In this document: one piece after another, positions 27,264 to 37,068 of the stretch
Layout of the letters: every line of letters starts with the position of its first letter
How positions within the stretch are numbered: the stretch's first letter is position 1
NCBI GenBank assembly: GCA_028871345.1
Contig: JAGWNK010000002.1
Coordinates: 1-64,000 of the forward strand
Direction of reading: 5' to 3'
From: Alphaproteobacteria bacterium
GTDB taxonomy: Bacteria > Pseudomonadota > Alphaproteobacteria > Micropepsales > Micropepsaceae
DNA length: 64,000 bases
The notes under the pieces: model-generated
Told to the model about the DNA's origin: nothing
What the model saw: only the letters and a program-made list of their open reading frames with translations
Database searches by the model: none
Position numbers and translations under genes: made by a program

Positions 27264-27869
27264 ATGCTTGTGACGGTGACGTCTTATCGGGAACCTTGGC
27301 AGGCCCACATGTTCCAGGCCCGCTTGGCGGCCGAGGACATTCCCGCCGTCGTGGCGCACGAACTACACGTCGGAAATGCCTGGCATTTGTCGGTCGCATT
27401 GGGCGGGGTCAAAGTCCAGGTCCCCGAAGAACGGTTGGAGGATGCATACGACGTCGCCCGGCTTTGTGCGGCCGGCGAATTTCGCGCCCTGCTGGAAGCC
27501 GAGGTCGGTGATCTTGATGATGTGCGGTGCCCAAATTGCGGAGCCATCACGTTCCACAGGCGACGTCCGCTACCGAGGGCGGCGTTGGCAATCGCCTATT
27601 CGCTTTGTTGGGGTCCGATCTGCCCGCCCATCGGCTGGCTTTGCATTTGCGCGAATTGCAGAACGCGGTTTGTGCCCCGGCCTTGCTACAAGACGGACAA
27701 ATGGCTGGCGACGGCGTACCTTATTCCGTTATTCTTGTTGGCTCTGTTTTCGGCGTTGTTTTGCCTGGCCATGATCGCGGCCTGCCCGCCGTCAGCCAGC
27801 TCTGGCGAGTGTGCCGCAGGAAGGGCGGCATGGTTCGAGCGCTGGATTCCTGCAACCAGGCAACATTGA
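27264..27869 (+). CDS. DUF2007 domain membrane protein with zinc-ribbon-like cysteines
   Basis: A 201-residue protein. Residues 1-65 match DUF2007 (signal-transducing-protein-like): VTSYREPWQAHMFQARL, a VVAHE segment, and KVQVPEERLEDA. Two Cys pairs, CPNCG (about 90) and CANC (about 131), could bind zinc. One strong hydrophobic segment (about 150-170) follows and a Cys-containing tail ends the chain. The function is unknown. ATG at 27264 is the first start; the ribosome site is weak. The gene lies between rnr and rpmG on the same strand. Confidence 0.75.
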   Translation: MLVTVTSYREPWQAHMFQARLAAEDIPAVVAHELHVGNAWHLSVALGGVKVQVPEERLEDAYDVARLCAAGEFRALLEAEVGDLDDVRCPNCGAITFHRRRPLPRAALAIAYSLCWGPICPPIGWLCICANCRTRFVPRPCYKTDKWLATAYLIPLFLLALFSALFCLAMIAACPPSASSGECAAGRAAWFERWIPATRQH

Positions 27870-28268: not shown

Positions 28269-29177
28269 TTATGGATTGTGCCCCAGTCTCCCCCGCTCCG
28301 CCTTCTGGATGAAGGGGATCATCAGGTCATGAAGCAGCGGGATGACGCCGGGGGGAATGTCGTGGCCCCAGCCTTCGATCTCATGATAGGTGGCGCCGGG
28401 CACGCATTCGGCGATGCGGCGCCCATGCGCGGACGGCAGAAGCGTGTCGGCAGAGCCATGCAGCACCAGCGTCGGCAAATCGAGCGACTTCAGCCGTTCT
28501 CCGCGCGGTGGCGCAGCAACGATTGCGGACCAGTGGCGCGACGTACCCTCGGGGTAGTGGGAGCGGTCATAGATGCGCCCCACGATCTCGGCGAGACGCT
28601 TCTCATCGGACGGGAAAGCGCTGGACGCATATGCACGACGCGACTTCAGCACGTGCGCGATTACCGTCTCGCGGTCGCTCGTCGGCGCTTGCGCGACGAG
28701 CGCGAGATGCGCCTCCGCCGAAGAGGGCGGCAGGCCGTAGTCGCCGGTCGTTGAGAAGATCGTCGTGAGGGAGCGCACCTTCTTGCGATGCTCGAGTGCC
28801 ACGAGCTGGGCAATCATTCCGCCCATGGAAGCGCCAGCCACATGGGCGCTCCCGATCCGCAACGCCTCCAAGAGACCCGCAGCGTCCCCCGCCATGTCGC
28901 TAAGGGTGTAGGGAATGAACGGATTGTTCCCGCTCTTGAGCGCACTCATGACCGCTCGCATGTCGGGGATCTTGCCGTCCCACTTCTCGCTCAGGCCTGT
29001 GTCGCGGTTGTCATAGGTTATGACCCGCATGCCCGCCCCGACAAAACCGTCGATGAATTCGCCCGGCCAGGCGATGCATTGCTGGCCGTACCCATGGATC
29101 AGAAGCAAGGGCATCCCCCCCTCTGGCCCAAAGCTCTCATATTCCAGAGTGATGCCGTTGGCGTGTGTCCTGGCCAT
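28269..29177 (-). CDS. Alpha/beta-fold hydrolase
   Basis: A 302-residue hydrolase. The nucleophile Ser117 lies in GASMGG; the oxyanion region is LLLIHGYGQQC (about 25-35); the acid residue is likely in VLHGSADTLLPS and the catalytic His in EGWGHDIPPG. It resembles lipase/esterase-like proteins of the abhydrolase-1 group. The substrate is unknown. It is divergent from the diacylglycerol-kinase-family gene with a 101-bp shared promoter region, which may link it to lipid metabolism. Confidence 0.88.
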   Translation of the reverse strand: MARTHANGITLEYESFGPEGGMPLLLIHGYGQQCIAWPGEFIDGFVGAGMRVITYDNRDTGLSEKWDGKIPDMRAVMSALKSGNNPFIPYTLSDMAGDAAGLLEALRIGSAHVAGASMGGMIAQLVALEHRKKVRSLTTIFSTTGDYGLPPSSAEAHLALVAQAPTSDRETVIAHVLKSRRAYASSAFPSDEKRLAEIVGRIYDRSHYPEGTSRHWSAIVAAPPRGERLKSLDLPTLVLHGSADTLLPSAHGRRIAECVPGATYHEIEGWGHDIPPGVIPLLHDLMIPFIQKAERGRLGHNP

Positions 29178-29278: not shown

Positions 29279-30217
29279 ATGAGCGCCTTCGTCGTCGTCA
29301 ATCCGCGCTCTGCCAACGGCAGGACCCGTCGCAATTGGCCGGCGCTCGAACCGGCTCTGTCTGAGGTCTATCCGTACATGTCGGTTGCTTTTACGCGGCG
29401 GCGCGGCGAGGCGACCGCGCTTGTGTCGGCCGCCCTGCGGGAGGGTCACAGCGAAATCGTCGCTGTCGGCGGCGATGGCACCATCAACGAGGCCATCAAC
29501 GGCTTCTTCGACGCAGACGGCGCCGTGTCTCCCGATGCCGTCCTCGCCTTCGTGCCGAGTGGCACGGGCGGAGATTTTCCCAAGACCTTTGGCCTGACCG
29601 GAGATAGGACCCAGATCATCGCCCATCTACGTCAGAGCCGCGTGCGAGCTGTCGATGTCGGCCGAGCGACGTTCCTGTCGTGCGACGGTATACCGCGGCG
29701 GCGTTATTTCGCGAACATCGCCTCTTTCGGCCTCTCAGGCGCCATCGTCGATGCGGTCAATAGGTCGGTTCTGGCCAAGCGGTTCGGCGGCGCCTTTGCC
29801 TTCGGGTTCCACAGCGCCCTGGGGCTCATGACATATCGTGGCCGCGCCGTGCGTCTCATCGTCGATTCAACTTTCGACCAGATTATCACGATCTCCGCCG
29901 TCGCGGTCGCCAACGGCACGACGTTCGGTGCTGGCATGCGGATTGCCCCCGACGCACGACCGGATGATGGTCTCTTCGATGTTGTTGTTGTGGCCAGCGG
30001 CTCCCGGCGCTCGCTCCTGGCAAACATGAAACAGATCTACAGCGGCACCCATCTTGGCAACCCGAGTGTCCGCGTGATTCGCGGCAGCAAGGTTGTCGCC
30101 GCTCCTGTCGCCGACACGCGCGGTCGCGCTGTGCTGGTCGAAACCGACGGCGAAGGTATCGGCAGGCTGCCCGCGACTTTTGAGGTTCTGCCCCGTGCCC
30201 TGAATGTGCGATGCTGA
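29279..30217 (+). CDS. Diacylglycerol kinase family lipid kinase (YegS/DagK type)
   Basis: A 312-residue lipid kinase with the DAGK catalytic domain: VVNPRSANGR at the start, the nucleotide-binding VAVGGDGTINEAINGF (about 62-77), and PSGTGGDFPKTFG (about 93-105). The C-terminal half carries ARPDDGLFDVV and the LVETDGEGIGRLPA strand typical of the family. It would phosphorylate diacylglycerol, a sphingoid base or a related lipid. It is followed after 18 bp by the alkyl-DHAP-synthase-like gene, suggesting an operon. Confidence 0.9.
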   Translation: MSAFVVVNPRSANGRTRRNWPALEPALSEVYPYMSVAFTRRRGEATALVSAALREGHSEIVAVGGDGTINEAINGFFDADGAVSPDAVLAFVPSGTGGDFPKTFGLTGDRTQIIAHLRQSRVRAVDVGRATFLSCDGIPRRRYFANIASFGLSGAIVDAVNRSVLAKRFGGAFAFGFHSALGLMTYRGRAVRLIVDSTFDQIITISAVAVANGTTFGAGMRIAPDARPDDGLFDVVVVASGSRRSLLANMKQIYSGTHLGNPSVRVIRGSKVVAAPVADTRGRAVLVETDGEGIGRLPATFEVLPRALNVRC

Positions 30218-30235
30218 TTGGGCTGGGGGGACCGA

Positions 30236-31906
30236 ATGGCCGTCGATCGCACGAAAATCCGCTGGAACGGCTGGGGCTGGGCCGCTCATAAGGATGATGT
30301 CGGTCCGCGTGAAATCGTGTGGACTTGGCTTGCAGGCGAACTGGGCATGCCGGCGCTGCTCGCCACACCACCGCGCCCTCTCGATGAATTAACACTGCCC
30401 CCAACCAAGCTTTTTCCCGAAGATCATGCAGCCCTGGCTGCCATTGTCGGCGCCGACAGCGTCCGCTGCAGCCCTTATGAACGCGCCTTTCACGCTCTCG
30501 GGCGCAGCTACCACGATCTGCTGCGCCTGCGTGCCGGCGCCTTGGAATCCCTTCCTGATGCCGTCGTCTATCCGCGATCGACGGACGAGGTACTCGCTCT
30601 CCTTGCCTACTGCAAAGCCCATCGCATCGGTGTCATCCCGTTCGGCGGCGGCACAAGCGTCGTCGGCGGCGTCAGCGCTGAATACGGAAACTTCGACACC
30701 ATCATCACAATTGACCTGTCGTCGATGGACCGGCTGCTCGATGTCGATTCCATCTCACGTACCGCGACGGCGGAAGCAGGAATCTATGGGCCGGCGCTCG
30801 AGCGCGGCCTCAACGCTAAGGGGTTCACGCTGGGCCACCTGCCCCAGTCCTTCGAGTTCTCGACCCTCGGCGGCTGGATCTGCCATCGCGGTGCAGGCCA
30901 GATGTCGCTGCGCTACGGCCGGGCCGAAGACTGGTTGGTCGGTCTCAAGCTGGCCACGACGGAAGGACTAGCCGCCGCGAGCGACGCTCCGGCTTCGGCG
31001 GCCGGCCCGCAGCTCAAGGATATCGTTGCGGGTTCGGAAGGCTCCTTCGGCATCGTTACCGAGGCGACGGTCCGGCTCATGCCATTACCGGAAGCCAGTC
31101 TGTATCGCAGCTACATGTTCCGCGATTTTGGCGCCGGCAGCGCCACGATCCGCGCAGCGATGCAGGACGACGTTGCCGCGAGCATGATACGCCTATCTGA
31201 CGTCGAGGAGACGAGGTTTCTGCGAACTTATGCCTCTATTGGCCATGCTGGATCCGTGCAGCGCTTCGGCGATCTGTATCTGAAGGTGCGCGGTATATCG
31301 CGCGAGCCATGTCTGATGATTGCCGCTTTCGAAGGCCGGCGCATGCGAGCACGATCAGCGCTGCACCACTTCTCCCGAATTGCCGCGCAGTATGGTGCGG
31401 TATCGCTTGGGCCGCGTATTGCCGAGCGCTGGCGGCAGACCCGATTTCAGGCGCCTTATCTGCGCGATGCCATGATGGACCGCGGTGTCGGTGTCGACAC
31501 GATCGAAACGGCCGCCAGTTGGATGAGACTCGAGACTGTATACGCAAACACGCGCGCCGCCCTCGAGAATGCAATTCGGGAAACCGCGCCGCGCGAGGGC
31601 GCGCGGGGTGTGGTGATGTGCCACATCAGCCATTCGTACAGCGACGGCGCGAGCCTTTATTTTACCTACGTGTTTCCGCGGGCGCTGGAGGGCGACATCG
31701 CCCAATGGAAGACGATCAAGAAGGCTGCAACCCAGGCCATTGTGGACAATGGCGGAACGGTCAGTCACCACCACGGCGTGGGCGAGGATCACCTGCCTTG
31801 GATGATGCAGGAGAAAGGTCCGCTGGGAATCGCCGCGCTGAGGGCGATCAAGAAGGCCTTCGACCCCGACGGCATCCTCAATCCCGGCAAGTTGATTCCT
31901 CCATGA
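30236..31906 (+). CDS. FAD-binding oxidase similar to alkyldihydroxyacetonephosphate synthase
   Basis: A 556-residue VAO/PCMH-fold flavoprotein. The N-terminal RWNGWGW and the FAD-binding VIPFGGGTSVVGG (about 133-145) and QSFEFSTLGGWI are shared with alkyl-DHAP synthases (AGPS). Diagnostic for that branch are the ASLYFTYVFPR strand with its Tyr near residue 478 and the His triplet His511-513 in SHHHGVGEDH, equivalent to the AGPS active-site His cluster. The ending FDPDGILNPGKL is general for the fold. AGPS replaces an acyl by an alkyl chain to start ether-lipid synthesis. ATG at 30236 follows a G-rich site; an in-frame TTG at 30218 is less likely. Confidence 0.85.
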   Translation: MAVDRTKIRWNGWGWAAHKDDVGPREIVWTWLAGELGMPALLATPPRPLDELTLPPTKLFPEDHAALAAIVGADSVRCSPYERAFHALGRSYHDLLRLRAGALESLPDAVVYPRSTDEVLALLAYCKAHRIGVIPFGGGTSVVGGVSAEYGNFDTIITIDLSSMDRLLDVDSISRTATAEAGIYGPALERGLNAKGFTLGHLPQSFEFSTLGGWICHRGAGQMSLRYGRAEDWLVGLKLATTEGLAAASDAPASAAGPQLKDIVAGSEGSFGIVTEATVRLMPLPEASLYRSYMFRDFGAGSATIRAAMQDDVAASMIRLSDVEETRFLRTYASIGHAGSVQRFGDLYLKVRGISREPCLMIAAFEGRRMRARSALHHFSRIAAQYGAVSLGPRIAERWRQTRFQAPYLRDAMMDRGVGVDTIETAASWMRLETVYANTRAALENAIRETAPREGARGVVMCHISHSYSDGASLYFTYVFPRALEGDIAQWKTIKKAATQAIVDNGGTVSHHHGVGEDHLPWMMQEKGPLGIAALRAIKKAFDPDGILNPGKLIPP

Positions 31907-32015
31907 CATTCGGGAGACTTTCGCGCGCTCGGCGCGCCAGACCCTTGTCGCATTTGCCGCGTGAGTTTCTCGCGAATTGCCAGGCGGGATCCTGGAATAT
32001 CGTCGGAGATGCCCG

Positions 32016-32690
32016 ATGACGGTCTGCCTCATGTTGCATGGTCTGGGCGCGCCGCCTTCGAGCATCGGCACCGAGGAACGCCCCTATTGGGCCACTCTGC
32101 ATCAGTGGCAGATGATCATGTCCTTGGCGCCCCATTGCGCGGTCGAAATCACGATCGACGATGGCAACAAGTCAGACGTCGAGATCGCTCTTCCGGCGCT
32201 CCGAAGCGTGGGTATGCGCGCCACCTTCTTCATTCCATCTGACCGTCTCGGCGCCGGTCCTCATTATCTGACCGAGGACGATGTGCGGTTGCTACACCGG
32301 TCCGGCATGGAAATCGGGTCCCATGGCTGCGCTCATTTGCACTGGACGAAACTGCCCAATGACTCAATCGTCAACGACATCACATGTTCCATCAAGCGCC
32401 TGAGCGCCATCACGGGAGCGACGGTGCGCTCTGTGGCCATCCCTTTCGGCGATTTCGACCGCCGCGTATTGGGAGTGTTACGGTCGCTGGGCGTGGGACG
32501 CGTTTACACCAGCCTTCACGGACCCGACTCCGGTAACGGATGGATCGTGCGGCGCGACTGCATCAGAAACCGCATGTCCGATGAAGATATCACGACCCTC
32601 ATGACCGACAGGCCTTCCCTGCCGATCGAGGCAATCGCCTTTCTGCGTACGTTGCGCCACGCCGGCCGCGCCGCACTGTGGCATGCCTGA
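32016..32690 (+). CDS. Polysaccharide deacetylase family protein (NodB domain)
   Basis: A 224-residue carbohydrate esterase family 4 protein. The NodB metal site is visible: ITIDDGNKSD (Asp48, Asp49) and GSHGCAHLHW (His103, His107). FFIPSDRLG and VAIPFGDFD are the third and fourth motif regions, the latter diverged. No signal peptide or membrane segment is present, so it may act on a cytoplasmic or lipid-linked sugar. The ATG at 32016 has GGAG seven bases upstream. It follows the AGPS-like gene by 109 bp on the same strand. Confidence 0.88.
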   Translation: MTVCLMLHGLGAPPSSIGTEERPYWATLHQWQMIMSLAPHCAVEITIDDGNKSDVEIALPALRSVGMRATFFIPSDRLGAGPHYLTEDDVRLLHRSGMEIGSHGCAHLHWTKLPNDSIVNDITCSIKRLSAITGATVRSVAIPFGDFDRRVLGVLRSLGVGRVYTSLHGPDSGNGWIVRRDCIRNRMSDEDITTLMTDRPSLPIEAIAFLRTLRHAGRAALWHA

Positions 32691-36129: not shown

Positions 36130-37068
36130 TCACGAACCGGTCCGGCCGGACCACAGGTCCGGCCGATCGGTGCAGATCGCGTCTACGCCAAGGGCAGCGA
36201 CCGCGTGCATCGCGTCGGCGCCATTCACGGTCCAGCAGCCGATCTTGAGGCCGAGGATGCGTGCCTCGCGCACGGCTGCCGCAGTTACATCGCGCCAGTA
36301 TGGAAACCAGCCATCGCCGCCGGCGGCCTTGATCGCAGCGATTATGGAGCCGCCATGACGCACTGCGTCATGCCCCGCCGCCCACGGCGACGTGCCGGTT
36401 CGTGCCCAGAGGCGCAGCATCTGTAGCGCCGGCCCGGGGGGCGGATCGTCTTCCGGTGGTGGTGTGCCCTCGCCAAACCAGCTTGACGGCAGGCTCGTGA
36501 ACCAGCAGCGCACGTGCGGCGCCAGCGCTTTGGCGCGGATGAGCCCCCGCCAATCGAATCCTACAAAGACCGCGCAGTTTGCGTAGTCGTGCTCTTCGAT
36601 TGCCGCAACGCTTCGCTCTGCGAGTTCCTCGGGACCGGCCGAGGCCTCAGAATCCGCAAAAGACGTCTTGAGTTCGACGAACAGATGGAACGGTTTGGGC
36701 GCCGTCTTGGCGACCGCAATCACTTCTTCTAGCAGCGGAATGGGCTCGCCGTCGCGCCACGCGACGGCAGCATGCTCCCGGGCGTACGTGCTTCCCGGCT
36801 GGGCCCGCCCGACATCGAAGTCGCGCAATTCCCCAAGCGTCAGATCCTTCACCAGCGCCGTCGGAGAAACGATCCAACGTCCCTTCCTGCGGCACAAGCC
36901 TTCCTTCAGACGGAAATCGTGGTGCACGATGACGCGACCGTCGCGTGACAGCTGGACGTCCAGTTCGGCGCCGTCACATCCCCGATGCACCGCACTCGTG
37001 AACGCGGCGAGCGTGTTCTCGGGCGCCAACTGAGCTCCCCCCCGATGGGCGATGATCCATGGTTGCAT
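36130..37068 (-). CDS. Glycerophosphodiester phosphodiesterase
   Basis: A 312-residue GDPD TIM-barrel enzyme. The metal and catalytic His appear in IAHRGGAQLAPENT (about 7-20) and VIVHHDFRL (about 50-58), with ELDVQLSRDG between. FVELK (about 128) supplies another acid and the end reads VNGADAMHAVAALGVDAICTDRPD (cited as landmarks). No signal peptide, so probably cytoplasmic, acting on phospholipid breakdown products. It is convergent with cysK, 11 bp apart. Confidence 0.93.
   Translation of the reverse strand: MQPWIIAHRGGAQLAPENTLAAFTSAVHRGCDGAELDVQLSRDGRVIVHHDFRLKEGLCRRKGRWIVSPTALVKDLTLGELRDFDVGRAQPGSTYAREHAAVAWRDGEPIPLLEEVIAVAKTAPKPFHLFVELKTSFADSEASAGPEELAERSVAAIEEHDYANCAVFVGFDWRGLIRAKALAPHVRCWFTSLPSSWFGEGTPPPEDDPPPGPALQMLRLWARTGTSPWAAGHDAVRHGGSIIAAIKAAGGDGWFPYWRDVTAAAVREARILGLKIGCWTVNGADAMHAVAALGVDAICTDRPDLWSGRTGS

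Follow-up and report, generated by a model that had tools for sequence, protein, structure and literature searches.

Described systems that resemble the locus

Eukaryotic alkylglycerone-phosphate synthase (AGPS) swaps chains on dihydroxyacetone phosphate (DHAP), and its reaction is reversible. A gene for an AGPS-type flavoenzyme adjoins a lipid kinase gene in a 64,000-nucleotide stretch of DNA from an alphaproteobacterium of the family Micropepsaceae (assembly GCA_028871345.1, contig JAGWNK010000002.1, positions 1 to 64,000), hereafter the window. The flavoenzyme belongs to a recurring and biochemically uncharacterised set, glpD–lipid kinase–flavoenzyme, whose Pseudomonas version has already been published, with no tested function in the accessible text, and in the window's genus the enzyme appears to have turned repeatedly into a pseudoenzyme. 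The window protein shares with eukaryotic AGPS (2uuu, 4bby) the fold, the flavin adenine dinucleotide (FAD) domain, the catalytic residues and the N-terminal WNGWG motif. Identity is about 30%, however, and the GNPAT/PlsB-type partner of the eukaryotic enzyme was not found in the window's genus (0/69 genomes).

In Pseudomonas aeruginosa, the GliR regulon genes PA3026–PA3023 are strongly raised, along with the phospholipase PlcA, when GliR is overproduced, according to the accessible text of the report (PMC8151288). As described there, PA3026–PA3025–PA3024 together with PA3023 comprise, like the set studied here, a proposed AGPS-like FAD-binding oxidoreductase, a GlpD homologue and a YegS-type kinase, and in both a role in glycerolipid metabolism is putative. 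The regulon differs in having an extra FGGY-type kinase, an AraC regulator and another gene order; the likeness is drawn from the published description of the PA genes. In mycobacteria, a table lists the row Rv2249c (glpD1)–Rv2250c–Rv2251 (flavoprotein)–Rv2252 (PMC4564863), and Rv2252 is given elsewhere as a diacylglycerol kinase (PMC3229680). By that tabulated description the row holds the same three enzyme types, although the mycobacterial type of layout, unlike the window, has a divergent TetR regulator and places the kinase after the flavoenzyme. Streptomyces and Tsukamurella loci of this layout encode flavoenzymes that are 41–42% identical to that of the window and keep its HHH triplet. 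Myxococcus xanthus also has a bacterial AGPS homologue in an operon (MXAN_1676–1674), where, as described, its partners are a FAR1-GNPAT protein and an NAD-dependent protein rather than glpD and a lipid kinase (PMC9131029).

The window encodes an AGPS-type flavoenzyme

The following genes of the window are compared with these systems:

28269..29177, minus strand: alpha/beta hydrolase, esterase-like (PF00561, E 2.7e-20), divergent and upstream of the kinase; possible member of the set
29279..30217, plus strand: YegS/Rv2252-type lipid (diacylglycerol) kinase, 312 amino acids (DAGK_cat PF00781 and YegS_C PF19279)
30236..31906, plus strand: AGPS-type FAD flavoenzyme, 556 amino acids from the ATG at 30236 (FAD_binding_4 and FAD-oxidase_C)
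32016..32690, plus strand: NodB-fold polysaccharide deacetylase, 224 amino acids from the ATG at 32016 (PF01522, E 3.7e-21)

The window is contig C30 of its source genome (G000), which is 99.94% complete by tool estimate. An earlier note on this DNA had read the last three genes as a kinase, a flavoenzyme and a deacetylase, and domain and family profiles confirm all three. The kinase scores 119.3 bits against TIGR00147 (YegS/Rv2252/BmrU), barely over the cut-off of 118.65 and thus inside the family, and carries its GGDGT motif at residue 64. The open reading frame of the flavoenzyme was listed from a TTG at 30218; the ATG at 30236, 18 bases after the kinase stop, is the preferred start because the alignment of relatives begins there, and with it the AGPS triplet falls on His511–513, as first numbered, and the Tyr on Tyr475. 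The deacetylase had been described as lacking a signal peptide, and none was seen on inspection of its N-terminus by eye alone.

The closest solved proteins by phmmer are AGPS of Dictyostelium (E 2e-91) and guinea pig (4e-76), followed by a D-lactate dehydrogenase (2e-30). All nine checked equivalents of guinea pig H300, T309, S367, R419, R515, Y578 and H615–617 are kept, at H201, T210, S267, R319, R410, Y475 and H511–H513. The guinea pig residues are presumably the functionally important ones, a view that agrees with PDB titles naming an Arg419His and a Tyr578Phe mutant. An AlphaFold2 model (mean predicted local distance difference test score, pLDDT, 75; 15 sequences in the alignment) retrieved only AGPS chains at Foldseek ranks 1–37 (E 1.6e-38 to 8.5e-33), and D-lactate dehydrogenase only after them (1e-25). 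In a quick tree of 60 of the 77 aligned rows, the window protein lies inside a 51-row clade with eukaryotic AGPS, with a Shimodaira–Hasegawa-like approximate likelihood ratio (SH-aLRT) of 95; YgcU-like proteins (4 rows) and the lactate/2-hydroxyglutarate/GlcD type (5 rows) fall outside, and the order within the clade, including the place of eukaryotic AGPS, is left open. Grouping with lactate or glycolate oxidases (GlcD/LDHD), which the earlier note had named as the observation that would count against AGPS, is rejected by the phmmer, tree and fold results and by family score (159.6 bits against the GlcD model TIGR00387, cut-off 567.9); the lactate/glycolate-type rows themselves have EH at H616–H617 in 7/7 cases (EHG in place of HHHG). 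By sequence, predicted fold, tree and active-site positions, the flavoenzyme is AGPS-type.

The Tyr and His triplet had been thought rare outside ether-lipid makers. Both occur in 4/4 rows that we take to be YgcU-like (one from an E. coli record) and in 18/18 rows of a bacterial THHHA[VL]G group, and therefore the rarity argument fails. In a third group, Pseudomonadota outside the window's class (presumably Gammaproteobacteria), which includes loci of GliR-like layout, 8/8 rows have HQH against HHH in the window. Matches at E <= 1e-45, YgcU-like proteins among them, were found in 36/289 genomes of the class; 27/289 reach below 1e-75 and 11/289 below 1e-120, and 15/299 genomes of the phylum reach 1e-60. 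In the window's GTDB genus the flavoenzyme is found in 50/69 genomes at 1e-40. The accessible text of a metagenome study reports Agps homologues in many bacterial metagenome-assembled genomes (PMC11868695).

Two plasmid loci, from Polaromonas and Ancylobacter (L081, L082), carry THHHALG-type AGPS-like proteins beside or near coenzyme A (CoA)-transferase genes (CaiB/frc), which suggests a different, possibly acid-catabolic subfamily. Four genomes of the genus have a second AGPS-like paralogue (G020:C19, G024:C166, G593:C71 and G607:C111), which in G020 and G024 shares 36% identity with the window's flavoenzyme.

glpD, kinase and flavoenzyme as the conserved unit

Among the 50 loci of the genus, 29 keep both Arg residues, the Tyr and HHH (intact), 19 are without at least one of these (degenerate), and two that are cut by contig ends (G598, G019) were counted as undetermined. 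The kinase adjoins the flavoenzyme at 44/50 loci, its GGDGT being lost in three of them (G588, G614, G010). A glpD gene, identified on example loci by PF01266 and PF16901, lies upstream on the same strand at 36/50, some loci being cut by contig ends, whereas NodB is present at only 8/50; the conserved unit is thus glpD–kinase–flavoenzyme. Of the single pathway row of kinase, flavoenzyme and deacetylase that had been proposed, the kinase pairing stands and the deacetylase does not, and glpD had been overlooked. As a pathway member NodB was rejected on this count, and its placeable carriers all belong to one clade of the core-gene tree (G590 is not placed); we judge it a local, lineage-specific insertion, incidental to the cassette. 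A FemAB-like gene (6/50 loci) was rejected on the same ground.

That gene, FemAB/GNAT-like, lies between flavoenzyme and NodB at L006:7729-8520 and L014:7614-8438, with equivalents in L013 and L015, and its FemAB match is over the cut-off in L014 and under it in L006. Together with NodB it presumably resembles the holdfast HfsK/HfsH pair. It is absent from the window, where the gap 31907–32015 gave nothing convincing as a remnant of it (best tblastx match E 7e-4, over 28 residues and on the query's other strand).

A glpD match exists in 29/29 genomes with an intact flavoenzyme, some partial, and at E 1e-40 is missing from 8/19 with a degenerate one. A neighbouring alpha/beta hydrolase more than 50% identical to that of the window is found at 22/29 intact against 0/19 degenerate loci, and an acyl-CoA-synthetase-like gene at 20/29 against 0/19; the loci differ in length, and some are short. 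The divergent hydrolase, suggested earlier as a fourth member, may therefore belong to the set, although the independent events are too few for significance. Among loci L170–L199, the flanks of many intact cassettes, upstream and downstream, carry esterase-like hydrolases, frequently as tandem genes, as well as an acyl-CoA-synthetase-like gene.

The linkage recurs in three distant groups. Other families of the class have glpD–kinase–flavoenzyme (L109, L110), kinase–flavoenzyme (L111) or glpD–flavoenzyme (L121). In Actinobacteria, glpD is present at 3/5 loci (L078, L079, L080) and the kinase too at two of these; at two loci glpD/TetR is divergent from flavoenzyme–kinase. Both genes are missing from the other two actinobacterial loci (L083, L084), which fall in the THHHA[VL]G group. 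In Pseudomonadota outside the class, 5/5 loci show flavoenzyme–glpD–FGGY kinase, with a YegS-type kinase next in one (L102). Neither glpD nor the kinase was detected at the search threshold at any of the 15 THHHA[VL]G-group loci examined, so that only part of the AGPS-like clade shows the linkage.

What the set may do

We tentatively view the window's kinase and flavoenzyme as the linked remainder of a cassette that may well process glycerolipids at the level of DHAP. The earlier note had proposed looking for a DHAP acyltransferase: the GNPAT/PlsB-type domain GPAT_C is found in 0/69 genomes of the genus, with a positive E. coli control, and the four PF01553 proteins of the window genome are PlsC-type acyltransferases only. 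The same genome has no convincing fatty acyl reductase, its best PF07993 match (50 bits) falling in a general dehydrogenase family; PF07993 is uninformative as a reductase test because all 14 controls match it, as does every genome. From these absences, and from the hydrolases and the synthetase-like gene at intact loci, we infer a direction and therefore lean, with moderate confidence, towards processing or breakdown rather than synthesis. One relative with an intact flavoenzyme has two adjacent strong PF07993 matches (G616:C1:4687336-4689140, E 1e-38 and 1.6e-40), a candidate for ether-lipid work.

Such processing would begin with esterases that deacylate glycerolipids, which may be ether lipids from the environment. 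The resulting alkyl- or acylglycerol would be phosphorylated by the YegS-type kinase and oxidised at C2 by the GlpD-type dehydrogenase to alkyl- or acyl-DHAP. Through a flavin–DHAP adduct, the AGPS-type flavoenzyme could then release the chain or exchange it, so that DHAP or acyl-DHAP is formed along with a fatty alcohol or acid, and the freed chain would be activated by an acyl-CoA synthetase.

Several observations weigh against this proposal. The known substrate of GlpD is glycerol 3-phosphate, and an alkylated substrate is assumed here. The PlsC-type acyltransferases of the window genome might acylate DHAP. The window's own glpD is not linked to the pair: it lies on another contig (G000:C5:23629-24873), and no other cassette gene occurs within the 14.5 kb read there. 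The hydrolase is missing from 7/29 intact loci and the synthetase-like gene from 9/29, some of these loci being short, and after correction for kinship the linkage of glpD and hydrolase leaves four independent contrasts, of which two are informative (sign test, p 0.5). The authors of the GliR study proposed the opposite direction, from glycerol to alkylglycerone phosphate, and in its accessible text growth was unaffected by deletion of PA3026–PA3024 under the conditions used, and the full P. aeruginosa-type cluster occurred in only 4/1748 genomes, with 8 more lacking the lipid kinase (PMC8151288). A tested enzymatic function of the cassette was not found in the open-access literature, most subscription papers lying outside the search, and this lack of biochemistry counts on the same side.

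Ether-lipid biosynthesis, an ether-lipid pathway having been one suggestion of the earlier note, would run the other way: GlpD would supply DHAP, an acyltransferase would make acyl-DHAP, the flavoenzyme would swap acyl for alkyl, and the kinase would return ether diacylglycerol to phosphatidate. We consider this unlikely. In its favour, every checked AGPS active-site position is kept, and synthesis is what was put forward for P. aeruginosa (PMC8151288, in its accessible text). In M. xanthus, disruption of MXAN_1676, the AGPS homologue beside the FAR1-GNPAT protein, is described as lowering ether lipids slightly (PMC9131029). Against synthesis stand the missing GPAT_C acyltransferase and the lack of a convincing reductase in the window genome. 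The PF10520 desaturase was found in 0/69 genomes, a count that is uninformative because the same search returned zero control matches. The gene set by itself is not evidence of ether-lipid synthesis.

It is likewise doubtful that the protein is an AGPS-fold oxidase or dehydrogenase acting on some other small substrate, as YgcU-like proteins and other relatives may be, with a regulatory or incidental link to the kinase. Tyr and HHH also occur in groups with sugar-kinase or CoA-transferase neighbours, and the tree leaves eukaryotic AGPS without a firm place in the AGPS-like clade, both of which would suit this explanation. The repeated linkage to glpD and to glycerol or lipid kinases in three distant groups, and the retention of 9/9 AGPS positions, argue against it.

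Degenerate relatives within the genus

Loss of the active site takes several forms. In L015/G591 (62% identity) an Arg is changed to Phe, the Tyr to Cys and HHH to HHL. In L013/G614, which encode the identical flavoenzyme, the Tyr is changed to Ala, the triplet is gone and the adjoining kinase has lost GGDGT too. Six others (G627, G621, G619, G625, G592, G001) have lost the GGGT segment of the FAD loop and the triplet, while the kinase GGDGT and glpD are kept (glpD partial in G001). Eleven of the 19 degenerate loci lie beside a kinase with GGDGT, three beside a kinase without it, and five have no kinase match. G588, assembled as one contig and 99% complete, encodes a degenerate flavoenzyme and gave no match to glpD at 1e-40, and seven genomes that have glpD show no flavoenzyme match at the locus.

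A core-gene tree requires at least four changes between intact and degenerate states (24 intact, 18 degenerate and 7 absent rows) and gives four independent contrasts on supported branches. The tree covers 50 of 61 loci; L153, L154, L176, L177, L183, L186, L192, L198 and three outgroups were dropped for scant sequence, and G623, cut by a contig end, is not in it. G164, below the search cut-off and outside the 19/50 count, was treated as degenerate in the core-tree, contrast and segment analyses. In both trees the window's sister lineage is a degenerate group, whereas its own gene is intact.

That these copies are ordinary pseudogenes in a cassette decaying throughout the genus is improbable. 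The seven glpD-keeping genomes without a flavoenzyme at the locus would fit such decay, but no internal stop was found among the genus rows listed, whereas simulated neutral evolution, run to half the divergence seen between pairs, gave on average 9.9–12.4 stops per gene and 0/500 stop-free runs for each of four genes, one of which had an over-long start. Ratios of nonsynonymous to synonymous substitution (dN/dS, Nei–Gojobori) point both ways: at 0.17–0.52 in the 14 closest, overlapping, degenerate pairs they speak against neutrality, and they also exceed both the 0.06–0.34 of the 14 closest intact pairs and, in most of the same pairs, the values for kinase, glpD and core genes, as decay would predict. 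In L164–L165 and L163–L164 the flavoenzyme is level with its own, degenerate, kinase. Values above 1 for L161–L162 and L161–L169 (aligned identity 0.16 and 0.06) were judged artefacts of the over-long start of L161, which shifts the codon register, and 0.25 and 0.24 were used instead. By these sequence measures, selection on the degenerate genes is relaxed, not neutral.

Erosion is also uneven, worst in the cofactor and active-site segments. One clade contributes 11 degenerate genes, counting L210; in these, mean pairwise identity falls to 0.09–0.22 in segments 135–154 (FAD loop), 215–234, 255–274 (S267) and 495–534 (His triplet), against 0.68–0.81 in intact genes; it is 0.18 at the N-terminus and 0.26 in segment 395–414 (R410). 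Segments 95–134, 295–314, 375–394 and 435–454 of the same genes hold 0.50–0.67, against 0.45–0.75 in intact ones. Six genes of the other clade retain more of the FAD loop (0.52), and their segments 215–234 and 495–534 are likewise eroded (0.08–0.34). The 29 intact genes all entered this comparison, as did 17 of the 20 degenerate ones, L152, L157 and L198 being omitted; because the two groups are unequal in depth, conclusions can be drawn from the contrast between segments alone. The degenerate L013 protein was still modelled as an AGPS fold, with a Foldseek match (mean pLDDT 75), by a model biased by the mostly intact relatives in its alignment. The pattern fits apparent pseudoenzymes, kept for something besides AGPS catalysis. 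A published report of degenerate bacterial AGPS homologues was not found in the open-access literature.

A more speculative combination, to which we give little weight, is that alkylglycerol ethers are broken down without O2 or pterin, by kinase, GlpD-type oxidation and reversed AGPS chemistry that frees a fatty alcohol, and that in this genus the flavoenzyme has repeatedly turned non-catalytic yet been kept, perhaps to scaffold or regulate the kinase.

Neighbouring genes

Other genes around the cassette in the window are:

upstream of the cassette: topA, rnr and dprA (families tested)
27264..27869, plus strand: protein of 201 amino acids with Cys pairs and a sub-threshold DUF2007 match, between rnr and the cassette
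downstream of NodB: coaBC (family tested)
after coaBC: dut, an Rrf2-type regulator and cysK (named by eye)
36130..37068, minus strand: glycerophosphodiester phosphodiesterase (PF03009), 3.4 kb downstream of NodB; its product would be glycerol 3-phosphate

Implications

AGPS homologues serve as metagenome markers of ether-lipid potential, as the accessible text of one study has it (PMC11868695). Such use would mislead for the glpD-linked bacterial group if its members act otherwise or no longer have an active site. AGMO has been called the sole enzyme that cleaves the alkyl ether bond (PMC9192799, in its accessible text), and an AGPS-based route of ether processing, if true, would be a novelty. 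Within the genus, one syntenic place shows a natural series, from intact through point-mutated and FAD-loop-deleted to absent, and the repeated change to apparent pseudoenzymes in this genus is the part most worth following.

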